Positions 23,941 through 50,612 of a stretch of DNA of 64,000 nucleotides are shown here, piece after piece. The notes below the pieces were generated by a model. That model was not told the origin of the DNA. It made no database searches and worked only from the letters and a program-made list of their open reading frames with translations. Origin of the DNA: Crocinitomicaceae bacterium (GTDB lineage Bacteria; Bacteroidota; Bacteroidia; Flavobacteriales_D; Crocinitomicaceae); contig JAJTCM010000006.1 of the NCBI GenBank assembly GCA_021325675.1, positions 62,001 through 126,000 on the forward strand, in the 5' to 3' direction. Position 1 is the first letter of the stretch; the number at the start of each line of letters is the position of its first letter. Position numbers and translations under genes: made by a program.

Positions 23941-24061
23941 TCCTTTAAACTTCTGACATTTAGACTCTTAACGCTAAATGCTTTTAGCCCGCGAAAAAAA
24001 AAGCGTATTTTATTCGTCTTAATCCATTTCTTTTTATAATTTTCATAAAAAATTACGGAAC

Positions 24062-24520
24062 ATGGCTACCATTTTTGAAACACGCTTAATTGGCAACATT
24101 GGAAAAGACGCTACTGTGAAAAACATGGAGAGAGGGGTTGTCGCCATTAATTTTCCGGTTGCCCACAATAAGAACTGGAAGGACAAACGCAACGGGGAGT
24201 CAAAAACACGCACCACCTGGGTCAACTGCACGATCTGGAAAAAAGACGGGGCGAACATGCGCATCCTGGATTTCCTCAAAAAAGGCGCTTTAGTAGAATT
24301 GATCGGTACGCCATTTGCCAAAGCTTTCGCCCAGGAAGACGGTTTTATCCGCACGGAAATCCGTTTGAACGTTTCAAAAACAAATATTTTACGTCCGGCC
24401 AAATTTGACGAGAATTTCCGGGACGACCTTGTTGACAGCGATGACGCTGATTGTGAGGACGAAAACGACTGCCTCGAAGGCACCGTTGAGGACTACACGC
24501 TTGACGAGAACGATTTTTAA
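24062..24520 (+). CDS. ssb: Single-stranded DNA-binding protein
   Basis: 152 residues. The OB fold is shown by ETRLIGNIGKDATVK, INFPVAHNKNW, TTWVNCTIWKKDG and LVELIGTPFAKAF, the classic SSB order. The tail after about residue 115 is strongly acidic (DDLVDSDDADCEDENDC) and ends DENDF, which fits the partner-binding tip DDDIPF only loosely. It protects single-stranded DNA in replication and repair. It may be a second, non-essential SSB, since Bacteroidota often carry several. It stands just upstream of tRNA-Asn. Confidence 0.92.
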   Translation: MATIFETRLIGNIGKDATVKNMERGVVAINFPVAHNKNWKDKRNGESKTRTTWVNCTIWKKDGANMRILDFLKKGALVELIGTPFAKAFAQEDGFIRTEIRLNVSKTNILRPAKFDENFRDDLVDSDDADCEDENDCLEGTVEDYTLDENDF

Positions 24521-24562
24521 ACTTTTTTTTGAAAGAAGTTTTTTCTTTTTAATTTCTTTTCC

Positions 24563-24570
24563 TATATTTG
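24563..24570 (+). promoter_or_regulatory. -7 box of tRNA-Asn
   Basis: TATATTTG matches TAnnTTTG, 30 bases upstream of the tRNA. Confidence 0.6.
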
Positions 24571-24600
24571 CACTCGCATTTCAGAAATGGTATGCAAAAT

Positions 24601-24674
24601 TCCTCCTTAGCTCAGTCGGTTAGAGCATCTGACTGTTAATCAGAGGGTCCTTGGTTCGAGCCCAAGAGGAGGAG
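24601..24674 (+). tRNA. tRNA-Asn (GTT)
   Basis: A full cloverleaf can be read: acceptor TCCTCCT paired with AGGAGGA (24667-24673), D-loop with AGCTCAGTCGGTTAGAGC, anticodon GTT at 24635-24637 in loop CTGTTAA, and T-loop GGTTCGAGCC. CCA is not encoded. A strong hairpin with a T-tract follows. Confidence 0.96.
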
Positions 24675-24805
24675 CGAAAAACAGAAAGAGAAACAGAGCG
24701 AAAGCGGTTTCTCTTTTTTGTTTTATACAAACCACCATCATGACCGTCTACATACTGCATTCAGAAAAACTTTCCCGCTTTTATACCGGCTTCACTACTG
24801 ATTTG
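24670..24805 (+). repeat. Direct repeat copy 1 (tRNA end, trailer hairpin, 5' part of the GIY-YIG ORF)
   Basis: These 136 bases recur at 25081-25216 with only two mismatches (24676 G/A and a T/C just before the ATG). The copy runs from the last bases of tRNA-Asn through the terminator hairpin to codon 22 of the GIY-YIG gene. Confidence 0.95.
24678..24724 (+). terminator. Trailer hairpin/terminator of tRNA-Asn
   Basis: AAAACAGAAAGAGAAAC (24678-24694) pairs almost fully with GTTTCTCTTTTTTGTTTT (24707-24724). The 12-base top AGAGCGAAAGCG can itself fold as GCGAAAGC. The descending arm supplies the T-tract. Confidence 0.75.
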
Positions 24806-25024
24806 GAAGTGAGATTAAAATTTCACGAAAACGCTGAACAACGAAAATTTACCTATAATGCTGATGATTGGGAAATTTATCATACGATTATTTGCCAGTC
24901 AAAAGCCCAGGCGCTGAAGATTGAAAAGCATATTAAACGTATGAAAAGCAAAATCTATATTCAGAACCTGAAAAAACATCCTGAAATCAATTCAAAACTT
25001 CTTATTAAATACAAAGACTGTTAA
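24740..25024 (+). CDS. Small GIY-YIG (URI-type) nuclease-family protein
   Basis: 94 residues. The nuclease core is recognisable: VYILHS as GIY, FYTGFT as YIG, LEVRLKFH with the catalytic-type Arg25, and KIEKHIK with the Glu. Members are small DNA endonucleases of the UvrC/intron-endonuclease superfamily; this short form has an unknown role and is common in Bacteroidota, often near tRNA or rRNA genes. It lies 65 bases after tRNA-Asn. Its last two codons and stop (GACTGTTAA) fall in a duplicated piece of the tRNA-Asn anticodon arm, so the ORF end is set by the duplication. Confidence 0.85.
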   Translation: MTVYILHSEKLSRFYTGFTTDLEVRLKFHENAEQRKFTYNADDWEIYHTIICQSKAQALKIEKHIKRMKSKIYIQNLKKHPEINSKLLIKYKDC

Positions 25025-25086
25025 TCGAGCCGCGAAAGCTTTCGGGGTTGGTTCGAGCCCATCCCGATAACTATCGGGAGAGGAGC
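25016..25086 (+). pseudogene. Degenerate 3' half of tRNA-Asn
   Basis: GACTGTTAATC (25016-25026) equals the tRNA anticodon arm at 24631-24641, TTGGTTCGAGCCCA (25048-25061) equals its T-arm at 24651-24664, and AGGAGC at 25081 equals its 3' end. Between them sit two small palindromic inserts (CCGCGAAAGCTTTCGGGG and CCCGATAACTATCGGGA). No 5' half is present, so it cannot be a working tRNA. Confidence 0.85.
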
Positions 25087-25216
25087 AAAAAACAGAAAGA
25101 GAAACAGAGCGAAAGCGGTTTCTCTTTTTTGTTTTATACAAACCACCACCATGACCGTCTACATACTGCATTCAGAAAAACTTTCCCGCTTTTATACCGG
25201 CTTCACTACTGATTTG
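25081..25216 (+). repeat. Direct repeat copy 2
   Basis: This is the second copy of 24670-24805, shifted by 411 bases. It contains the same hairpin and the first 22 codons of the GIY-YIG gene, and then diverges. Confidence 0.95.
25089..25135 (+). terminator. Second copy of the tRNA trailer hairpin
   Basis: It is the same stem and T-tract as at 24678-24724, carried by the duplication. It may end transcripts that read through the GIY-YIG gene. Confidence 0.6.
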
Positions 25217-25231
25217 AGACGGTTGTATTAA
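25151..25231 (+). pseudogene. Truncated GIY-YIG copy
   Basis: The ATG and 22 codons match the intact GIY-YIG gene residue for residue. Four unrelated codons and a TAA follow, giving a 26-residue remnant that keeps both GIY and YIG motifs but no Arg/Glu catalytic part. Confidence 0.9.
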
Positions 25232-25249
25232 AGATAATTCGTCTTGAGA

Positions 25250-26428
25250 TTAATCAATTTTGCTATTTCGCGATTGATTGCTGTTCAAATTCAATTTTAG
25301 CCAGGTAAAACCAATAATTCCTGCAACCAAAGAAGACAAGAGAACAATGAATTTGATGTTGTTAATGATGGCTTGATCCTCGAAAGCAAGCAGAGTAATA
25401 AAGATCGACATCGTAAAACCTATCCCGCCTAAAAACCCTGCCCCTAAAATGGCTTTCCAGTTCAGATCACCGGGTAATTTACACATACCAAACAGGACTG
25501 CAAGGAAGGTTAAAAGAAAGATCCCCAAAGGTTTTCCTACAATAAGCCCCGCCATAACTCCCAGGCTATAATCTTCTTTCAGCAAGCTCCCCATGTCGGA
25601 ACTCAATACAATAGCTGTATTCGCCAAAGCAAAAACAGGAAGGATCACAAACGCAACAGGTTTATGCAAGAAATGCTGTAAAATATAAGATGTTGATTTT
25701 TTTCCTCCGTCACCAAAGGGAATTGCAAAGGCCAGCAACACTCCGGTTATAGTCGCGTGTACACCGGAATGGAGCATAAAATACCACATTGCAGCGCCGC
25801 CAATGAGATATGGAAGCAAATTCTTCACCTTGAGCCGGTTTAGAACCAAAAGCGCAGCAAAGATCCCAAGGGCAATAAGCAGGTTTCCCCAAAGCAGGGT
25901 TTTTGTGTAAAATAGAGCGATGATAATGATCGCACCCAGGTCATCGATTACCGCGAGGGCAGTCAAAAAGATTTTGAGTGAGGTTGGCACCTTGTTCCCC
26001 AGAAGGGACAAAATGCCCAGGGCAAAAGCAATATCGGTTGCCATTGGAATTCCGGCGCCCGGCTGTGTGGCCGTTCCCAGGTTGAAAATCAGGAATAGCC
26101 CAGCGGGGATGATCATACCTCCTATCGCTCCGAAAACCGGCAAAAGGGCGTCCTTAAAATTGGCTAATTCCCCAATATAAATTTCACGTTCCAATTCAAG
26201 TCCGATCAGTAAAAAGAAAATCGTCATCAGTCCATCGTTAACCCAATGTTCAATAGAATTTCCGGCAAACCGGCCCTGCCAAAAATGGTGATACCCTTCG
26301 CCCATGGAAGAATTCGCAATTAAAAGTGAGATTGCTGTACACAAAATCAGGATTAACCCTCCTGCCTTTTCGCTGTTGAAAAAGTCTTTAAATAATTGCG
26401 TCGGTTCAGTTATCTTCAATTTTGTCAT
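25250..26428 (-). CDS. nhaA: Na+/H+ antiporter NhaA
   Basis: 392 residues with about twelve hydrophobic segments. It expels Na+ or Li+ in exchange for protons across the inner membrane. Key residues are in place: Asp132 in ATDIAFALG, the pair Asp162-Asp163 in VIDDLGAI, and Lys299 in VGKPLGIF, matching D133, D163/D164 and K300 of the E. coli protein. The gene overlaps the preceding antiporter gene by 23 bases, so the two are translated together. Its stop lies 18 bases from the truncated GIY-YIG copy. Confidence 0.96.
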   Translation of the reverse strand: MTKLKITEPTQLFKDFFNSEKAGGLILILCTAISLLIANSSMGEGYHHFWQGRFAGNSIEHWVNDGLMTIFFLLIGLELEREIYIGELANFKDALLPVFGAIGGMIIPAGLFLIFNLGTATQPGAGIPMATDIAFALGILSLLGNKVPTSLKIFLTALAVIDDLGAIIIIALFYTKTLLWGNLLIALGIFAALLVLNRLKVKNLLPYLIGGAAMWYFMLHSGVHATITGVLLAFAIPFGDGGKKSTSYILQHFLHKPVAFVILPVFALANTAIVLSSDMGSLLKEDYSLGVMAGLIVGKPLGIFLLTFLAVLFGMCKLPGDLNWKAILGAGFLGGIGFTMSIFITLLAFEDQAIINNIKFIVLLSSLVAGIIGFTWLKLNLNSNQSRNSKID

Positions 26429-29414: not shown

Positions 29415-29828
29415 ATGAAAAATATATTGATCTTATGTACCGGCAATAGCTGCAGGAGCCAGATCGCGCAAGGCTATTTGCAGCATTATGCCGGAAACAA
29501 AGCGCAGGTTTACAGTGCCGGCGTTGAAACCCACGGCGTCAATCCGCTTGCCGTTGAAACCATGAAAGAAGACGGAATTGACATTTCGGGACATACGTCC
29601 AATCACGTGGATGAATACAGCGGTATAGATTTCGCTTATGTGATCACTGTTTGTGACAATGCGCAGGAACGCTGCCCTTATTTCCCGACAAAGGCACAGA
29701 AACTTCACCATAATTTTCCTGATCCGGCAAAAGCTTCAGGAACAAAAGAAGAAATAAGCGAAGCCTTCCGGAAAGTGCGGGAAGAAATCAAAGTATTCTG
29801 CCGGGACTTCGCGAAACAGGAATTGTAA
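29415..29828 (+). CDS. arsC: Arsenate reductase, low-molecular-weight phosphatase type
   Basis: 137 residues from the ATG that opens the strand NILILCTGNSCRS. Cys8 in the P-loop CTGNSCRS, and Cys80 and Cys87 in VCDNAQERCP, match the three-cysteine relay of thioredoxin-coupled ArsC, and DPAKASG supplies the general acid. It reduces arsenate to arsenite in the cytoplasm. No arsB or acr3 efflux gene follows; the next gene is a T9SS protein, so arsenite export must be encoded elsewhere. Confidence 0.95.
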   Translation: MKNILILCTGNSCRSQIAQGYLQHYAGNKAQVYSAGVETHGVNPLAVETMKEDGIDISGHTSNHVDEYSGIDFAYVITVCDNAQERCPYFPTKAQKLHHNFPDPAKASGTKEEISEAFRKVREEIKVFCRDFAKQEL

Positions 29829-50558: not shown

Positions 50559-50612
50559 AATCAGAATGAGAAACAGAGCGAGAGCGAAATTTCTTGTTCT
50601 GATTTTTTTCAT
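50558..50612 (+). terminator. Trailer hairpin/terminator of tRNA-Leu
   Basis: AAATCAGAA (50558-50566) pairs perfectly with TTCTGATTT (50597-50605), the stem continues inward with GAGAAA/TTTCTT, and a T-tract follows. The top contains GAGAAACAGAGCGAGAGCG, one base different from the tRNA-Asn trailer. Confidence 0.75.

Follow-up and report, generated by a model that had tools for sequence, protein, structure and literature searches.

The locus described here lies within a 64,000-nucleotide stretch of contig JAJTCM010000006.1 from a Crocinitomicaceae bacterium, the whole of which is referred to as the window. An intact tRNA-Asn gene is followed on the same strand by a terminator-like hairpin, a small ORF encoding a GIY-YIG nuclease, a degenerate part-copy of the tRNA (designated tRNA*) and a second, partial unit, arranged as listed below.

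24062..24520, + strand: flanking host gene, whose product we take from its sequence to be a single-strand-binding-like protein; marks the orthologous site in relatives
24601..24675, + strand: intact tRNA-Asn(gtt) (ARAGORN; Rfam RF00005, 69 bits)
24677..24724, + strand: terminator-like hairpin of the tRNA-Asn, 18-nt arms and a T run (z -4.1)
24740..25024, + strand: ORF for a 94-aa GIY-YIG nuclease with intact catalytic residues; tRNA sequence provides the stop codon
25016..25086, + strand: tRNA*, a degenerate tRNA-Asn 3' half, identified by comparison with the intact tRNA-Asn; the feature recurs in relatives
25030..25047, no strand: palindrome CCGCGAAAGCTTTCGGGG, with one imperfect pair, in place of the variable-loop region of tRNA*
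25062..25079, no strand: palindrome TCCCGATAACTATCGGGA, in place of part of the acceptor side of tRNA*
25088..25135, + strand: terminator hairpin, second copy
25151..25231, + strand: nuclease ORF, truncated second copy, 26 aa in all

The window therefore holds one full unit and one truncated unit, joined by a near-identical repeat (24669-24805 and 25080-25216; 137 nt, 99% identity, spacing 411). The original prediction, which gave this repeat as 136 bases with two mismatches, 411 apart, was correct, as was its statement that 22 codons of the nuclease ORF are repeated: the second copy at 25151-25231 shares these 22 codons before running into four unrelated codons and a stop. It had also been predicted that the stop codon of the full ORF is supplied by tRNA sequence, and the sequence, read directly, places this TAA inside CTGTTAATC, the anticodon region of tRNA*. 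The broken tRNA-Asn 3' half and both of its small palindromes are likewise present, but the palindromes replace pieces of the tRNA and are not pure inserts. The intact tRNA-Asn is uninterrupted, and an Rfam search of 24000-25800 revealed no intron family and no RNA other than tRNA above threshold. The idea that tRNA* retains a tRNA fold was dropped, no cloverleaf being predicted for the window copy. Similar terminators follow three tRNA genes in this genome, namely tRNA-Asn (24677-24724), tRNA-His (L007 1500-1550; 94% alike over 49 nt) and tRNA-Leu(caa) (window 50559-50605; 90% over 29 nt).

The predicted protein has a sole Pfam match, to PF01541 (GIY-YIG; E=4e-12, 46.7 bits against a curated cut-off of 22.6). 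In an alignment of 135 rows, residues Y4 (127/128), Y15 (131/132), G17 (132/132), R25 (134/135) and E62 (134/135) are, together with H29, almost invariant, and we take the Y, Y-x-G, R and E among them to be the GIY-YIG catalytic residues. When a structure model of the protein (pLDDT 87) was compared with known folds, the best Z scores were to Slx1 (7.3), I-TevI (6.6), UPF0213 (6.2) and UvrC (5.7), with unrelated rows reaching at most 4.2; Z scores of 7.3 to 5.7 are modest by themselves, and agree with the sequence search, in which the nearest solved sequence was 1zg2, the UPF0213 protein BH0048 (E=1.2e-6). In domain score, catalytic residues and predicted fold, the protein is thus a member of the GIY-YIG superfamily. 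It resembles the stand-alone UPF0213 proteins in size as well as in this nearest solved sequence; to our knowledge, no tRNA linkage has been described for proteins of that type. No second domain was seen in the model of the 94-aa protein, no family was assigned to it by NCBIfam or PHROGs at E<=0.001, and no match was found among 50,697 phage records (tblastn, E<=1e-5).

A search of genome contigs with the window protein returned 40 loci, which from their titles are presumably all from Bacteroidota, and matches to the nuclease were present in 60 of 99 genomes (the window's own and 98 relatives). From the places listed in these searches we compiled a set of 175 hits, from which exact duplicates were removed and in which tandem copies and partial pieces were kept. 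A tRNA gene lies within 600 bp of 122 of the 175 (a number that includes two odd ARAGORN calls, tRNA-??? and tRNA-Stop), the nearest one being upstream in 98 cases and downstream in 24, and opposite-strand tRNAs were encountered only twice in all. The median gap from an upstream same-strand tRNA to the nuclease was 72 bp (103 hits). Of the 53 hits with no tRNA within 600 bp, 20 are at contig ends; 34 of the 175 lack both an intact same-strand tRNA and any tRNA fragment, which counts against a tRNA cassette. In a draw across the phylum, 95 of 198 genomes matched the nuclease alignment at E<=1e-8. The 29 best-scoring loci of this draw, one per genome and outside the window's own genome, had a same-strand tRNA within 600 bp in 28 cases and an opposite-strand tRNA in none, and at least two copies of the ORF were present in 11 of them (L253, among these loci, duplicates DNA already counted in the first set as L048). 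By comparison, the protein encoded at 29418-29825 of the window, taken as a control, was accompanied by a tRNA in 0 of 14 loci in fetched stretches of up to 1.5 kb a side. The search of relatives for combined tRNA and GIY-YIG units that had been proposed with the original prediction therefore shows the layout recurring at many tRNA isotypes, with tRNA neighbours far commoner than expected by chance.

Within the window's own genome (3.57 Mb, 33 tRNAs found) there are five GIY-YIG matches, of which the window unit and C8:25433, at a tRNA-Phe, are tRNA-linked; among the four matches looked at (C4:584029 lying outside), loci L002 and L003 have no tRNA around them. At about 25.4 kb on C8 (L001 1501-2340) the order is tRNA-Phe, terminator, GIY-YIG ORF and tRNA-Phe copy; by eye, the T arm of this copy is split by two long hairpins, one arm of which repeats 9 nt of the tRNA-Phe anticodon arm.

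On a complete chromosome (CP012155.1; L035), a 410-bp unit is repeated 8.1 times, with eight ORFs of 94 aa, after a tRNA-Asn gene that is itself preceded by 11.3 copies of an 80-bp ORF-less unit made of the tRNA-Asn 5' part with a palindrome in its D loop. Two tandem 64-bp ORF-less units, each consisting of the 5' part of tRNA-Arg(tct) with its D loop replaced by a palindrome, are present in the window's genome (L010 1460-1610; C1 about 330.7 kb), directly before an intact tRNA-Arg(tct). Unit spacing was about 320-410 bp in the arrays seen. By eye, L033 (about 2600-2780) also has several 5' parts of tRNA-Val in tandem, their D loops carrying palindromes, upstream of an intact tRNA-Val(gac). 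When repeats of this kind are found in draft assemblies, in which many of the nuclease hits are at contig ends, an assembly artefact or a chance duplication peculiar to the window's genome has to be considered. We give this explanation practically no credence and regard it as contradicted, since near-identity over 137 nt greatly exceeds what chance would produce and many other genomes, including one complete chromosome, show the same layout.

Fragments of tRNA outside intact tRNAs accompany 89 of the 175 hits (66 with an intact tRNA and 23 without) and a reversed-library control gave 0, the library for this count having been cleared of an 88-nt palindrome-bearing tRNA-Asn and 11 other entries. 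Among 239 hairpins near the ORFs (a rule excluded terminators), 114 are flanked on each side by tRNA sequence in the correct order, against 5 with a reversed and 3 with a shuffled library, so that the hairpin occupies the place of an internal tRNA piece. A looser count, of tRNA on at least one side (216/239), was rejected because reversed and shuffled libraries gave 198 and 236. The position replaced depends on isotype, with 99 pairs sharing isotype and junction class (96 distinct cases) against 34 expected and a maximum of 54 in 1000, a test that is partly circular since isotype is read from the same flanks as position. For example, 6 of 8 hairpins in tRNA-Val(tac) span position 26 to the variable loop, i.e. 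the anticodon arm, and 8 of 10 in tRNA-Leu(taa) are in or at the T loop; the library used for these junctions included the 88-nt tRNA-Asn, and a few positions are off because they were read against that entry. Hairpin arms vary between units yet pair (TCCCGA/TCGGGA, TCCCGC/GCGGGA, TCCGTC/GACGGA, TCCCCA/TGGGGA), a complementarity that arises by construction as only hairpins were selected. By eye, at L014 (2752-3400), the intact tRNA-Asn and the last tRNA copy are followed by similar terminators and the ORF is separated from the first tRNA copy by a different one, which looks like the insertion of a cassette that brought its own terminator.

Retention of an intact tRNA with a partial copy at the other side is a familiar feature of the phages and islands that integrate at tRNA genes, and the pairing of an intact tRNA with a partial copy is shared by the units described here. 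The fragments in our units differ in bearing hairpins and in deriving from either the 5' or the 3' part of the tRNA, and their edges vary, the first matched position ranging from 1 to 72 (an 8-mer test after the ORF was positive in 81 of 99 but would often be so by chance, and serves for fragment edges only). In the ORF lists there is no integrase ORF in the window unit or the L035 units, the GIY-YIG ORF being the only plausible gene. For these reasons, namely the lack of an integrase in the units examined and the 5' or 3' fragments with variable edges, the suggestion that integration at a tRNA 3' end left the locus behind as a remnant fits less well. The same spread of fragment edges over the tRNA, with no single cut site, also counts against a homing cassette.

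Short palindromes of the kind found in tRNA* are dispersed more widely. Of 99 genomes, 38 contain CCGATAGCTATCGG, the tabulated controls giving no hits, and 7 of 32 sampled sites match a tRNA by BLAST; palindromes also occur away from tRNAs, which counts against a tRNA cassette. In REP/RAYT systems short dispersed palindromes stand beside a small nuclease gene, and the Bacteroidota units similarly pair dispersed palindromes with such a gene, so that a REP-like system has to be weighed, in which a GIY-YIG protein mobilizes palindromes that insert in hairpin loops, be these tRNA arms or terminators. The palindromes are common to several genera, CCGATAGCTATCGG is located in the loop of a larger hairpin at 5 of 22 non-tRNA-like sites (null mean 0.95, maximum 4 of 60 draws), and TCCGTCAGCTGACGGA forms, by eye, the tip of two terminator-like hairpins on C1 of the window's genome (L234 about 1501 and L240 about 1501). 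The excess in hairpin loops is weak, however, and the tie between palindrome number and nuclease presence seems weak by eye, G063 having six palindromes and no nuclease match and G008 having 22 with one; moreover, the tRNA-Phe unit of the window's genome has different, longer hairpins in the same place. The enzyme, too, differs from that of REP/RAYT systems in being a GIY-YIG protein with no HUH (Y1) transposase (Pfam), and the palindromes differ in replacing tRNA arm pieces. A REP-like system is, we think, distinctly improbable. The RepRanger article makes no mention of GIY-YIG or RAYT (PMC12306157).

The position of the window unit downstream of the single-strand-binding-like gene allowed its occupancy to be compared between genomes. 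This ssb-tRNA-Asn site is visible in 30 genomes, in 19 with a tRNA and in 11 with none in the stretch, one of the latter (G024) nonetheless containing a nuclease. Of the 19 loci with a tRNA, four carry the nuclease (the window's own genome, G007, G015 and G028), 14 are empty and one is cut by a contig end. The comparison with an empty tRNA-Asn site in a close relative that had been recommended is provided by G002, of the same genus, which is among the 14. The arrangement is therefore not fixed among relatives, and such presence and absence at a fixed site is a mark of free-standing homing endonucleases. A single clade for the nucleases of the ssb-tRNA-Asn site was rejected (p-AU 6e-47), the test group having been named after the first tree was seen; L014 of G003, whose nuclease ORF is 71% identical to that of the window, was assigned to the site on the strength of an upstream gene whose end resembles, by eye, that of the window gene.

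On the nuclease tree (117 ORFs, one per locus, 104 of them labelled, 90 columns) tRNA isotype requires 29 changes, compared with a mean of 68 and a minimum of 63 in 200 shuffles. Hits under 66 aa or containing stops were left out of the trees, and four long-branch rows and five duplicate loci out of the isotype tree. All nine Val(tac) rows form a single group, the 27 Asn rows require 5 changes and the 24 Met rows 7, and one group of 13 rows includes 10 Leu rows with four anticodons. The two separate Met groups look, from their sequences, like elongator and initiator Met. Asp-linked nucleases are scattered (5 changes for 5 rows), which counts against isotype fidelity, as does the reliance of the tree on 90 columns; overall, fidelity to a single tRNA isotype is a tendency of the nuclease clades.

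Site occupancy and isotype bear directly on whether the nuclease might simply be a useful host gene, active in DNA repair or defence and expressed from tRNA promoters, whose copies and fragments are by-products of slippage and unequal exchange. Slippage alone can expand tandem repeats, the repair nucleases Slx1 and UvrC are among the nearest solved folds, and the likeness between the window and G003 ORFs makes vertical retention within the window's genus possible. Patchy occupancy of a single site, different lineages at that site and isotype fidelity are all unexpected of such a gene, and we consider it unlikely. Isotype fidelity of the nucleases would fit a tRNA-directed toxin-antitoxin or defence pair, in which the nuclease cuts its cognate tRNA and the tRNA* RNA is a decoy or antitoxin, as would the retention of part of the tRNA in tRNA*; an involvement in RNA metabolism has been suggested for a prokaryotic Slx1 relative (PMC1564403). 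However, the parts of the tRNA kept in tRNA* differ greatly between loci, the window tRNA* is not predicted to fold as a cloverleaf, and neither the adjacency to tRNA genes nor the ORF-less arrays of 5' parts is explained, leaving such a pair very unlikely.

The closest parallel is the phage GIY-YIG homing endonuclease SegB, for which two reports describe a target in a tRNA intergenic region of T4 (PMC2988022) and amplification of a 718-bp unit comprising tRNA-Tyr and a truncated segB, where the tRNA 5' end and the segB 3' end share microhomology (PMC13096335). Our units resemble phage T4/T6 SegB in that a GIY-YIG gene adjoins tRNA genes and in the tandem amplification of a unit of tRNA and nuclease. 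They differ from SegB in being chromosomal, with no counterpart of the window protein in the phage records searched; in a nuclease of 94 aa whose model lacks a second domain; and in adding a degenerate, hairpin-bearing tRNA copy at many isotypes, with fidelity by clade. No description of tRNA-linked GIY-YIG units in Bacteroidota was found in the literature searched, which omits preprints and most subscription journals.

The observation is real and widespread. Its common element is a cassette of terminator, minimal GIY-YIG ORF and degenerate part-copy of the host tRNA, beside which the intact tRNA remains. Our favoured interpretation, held with moderate confidence, is that the window locus belongs to a family of compact selfish, homing-endonuclease-like cassettes of tRNA genes in Bacteroidota, close in logic to SegB. 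Besides this anatomy, same-strand tRNA linkage and the isotype tendency, we observed units at many isotypes, tandem arrays, unoccupied sites and one site shared by different lineages, the last four of which fit the original suggestion of a self-copying cassette at tRNA genes; the self-copying itself was not observed, no insertion or amplification between strains was caught and no transfer event was seen. In our working model of such homing cassettes, the nuclease would cut DNA at or near a tRNA gene, or at the hairpin-bearing tRNA*, and repair would proceed by recombination between the intact tRNA and the tRNA-derived copies. Such repair could insert the cassette into cassette-free alleles (homing), and unequal exchange could multiply it in tandem. 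The hairpins, by standing in place of tRNA arm pieces, may disable the spare tRNA copy, and might either mark the cut site or protect against cutting. This model does not account for the intact tRNA, which should be the expected target of its own nuclease.

A more tentative possibility, and a rather doubtful one, is that the units constitute a distinct class of mobile element, in which an isotype-specific minimal nuclease would recognize tRNA-shaped or hairpin DNA and the hairpin-swapped tRNA parts would serve as exchangeable homology arms. Units of this class could amplify both upstream and downstream of a tRNA that always stays intact, those at its 5' side having no ORF, as in the 80-bp tRNA-Asn units of L035 and the 64-bp tRNA-Arg units of the window's genome.

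If the interpretation as homing-endonuclease-like cassettes is correct, tRNA genes across the whole phylum would be host to a minimal selfish nuclease cassette, which would explain why tRNA genes are accompanied by broken tRNA pieces and tandem repeats and coincide with contig breaks. The cassettes would also be a source of candidate isotype-specific nucleases, and SegB-like tRNA-linked amplification would become testable in bacterial chromosomes.
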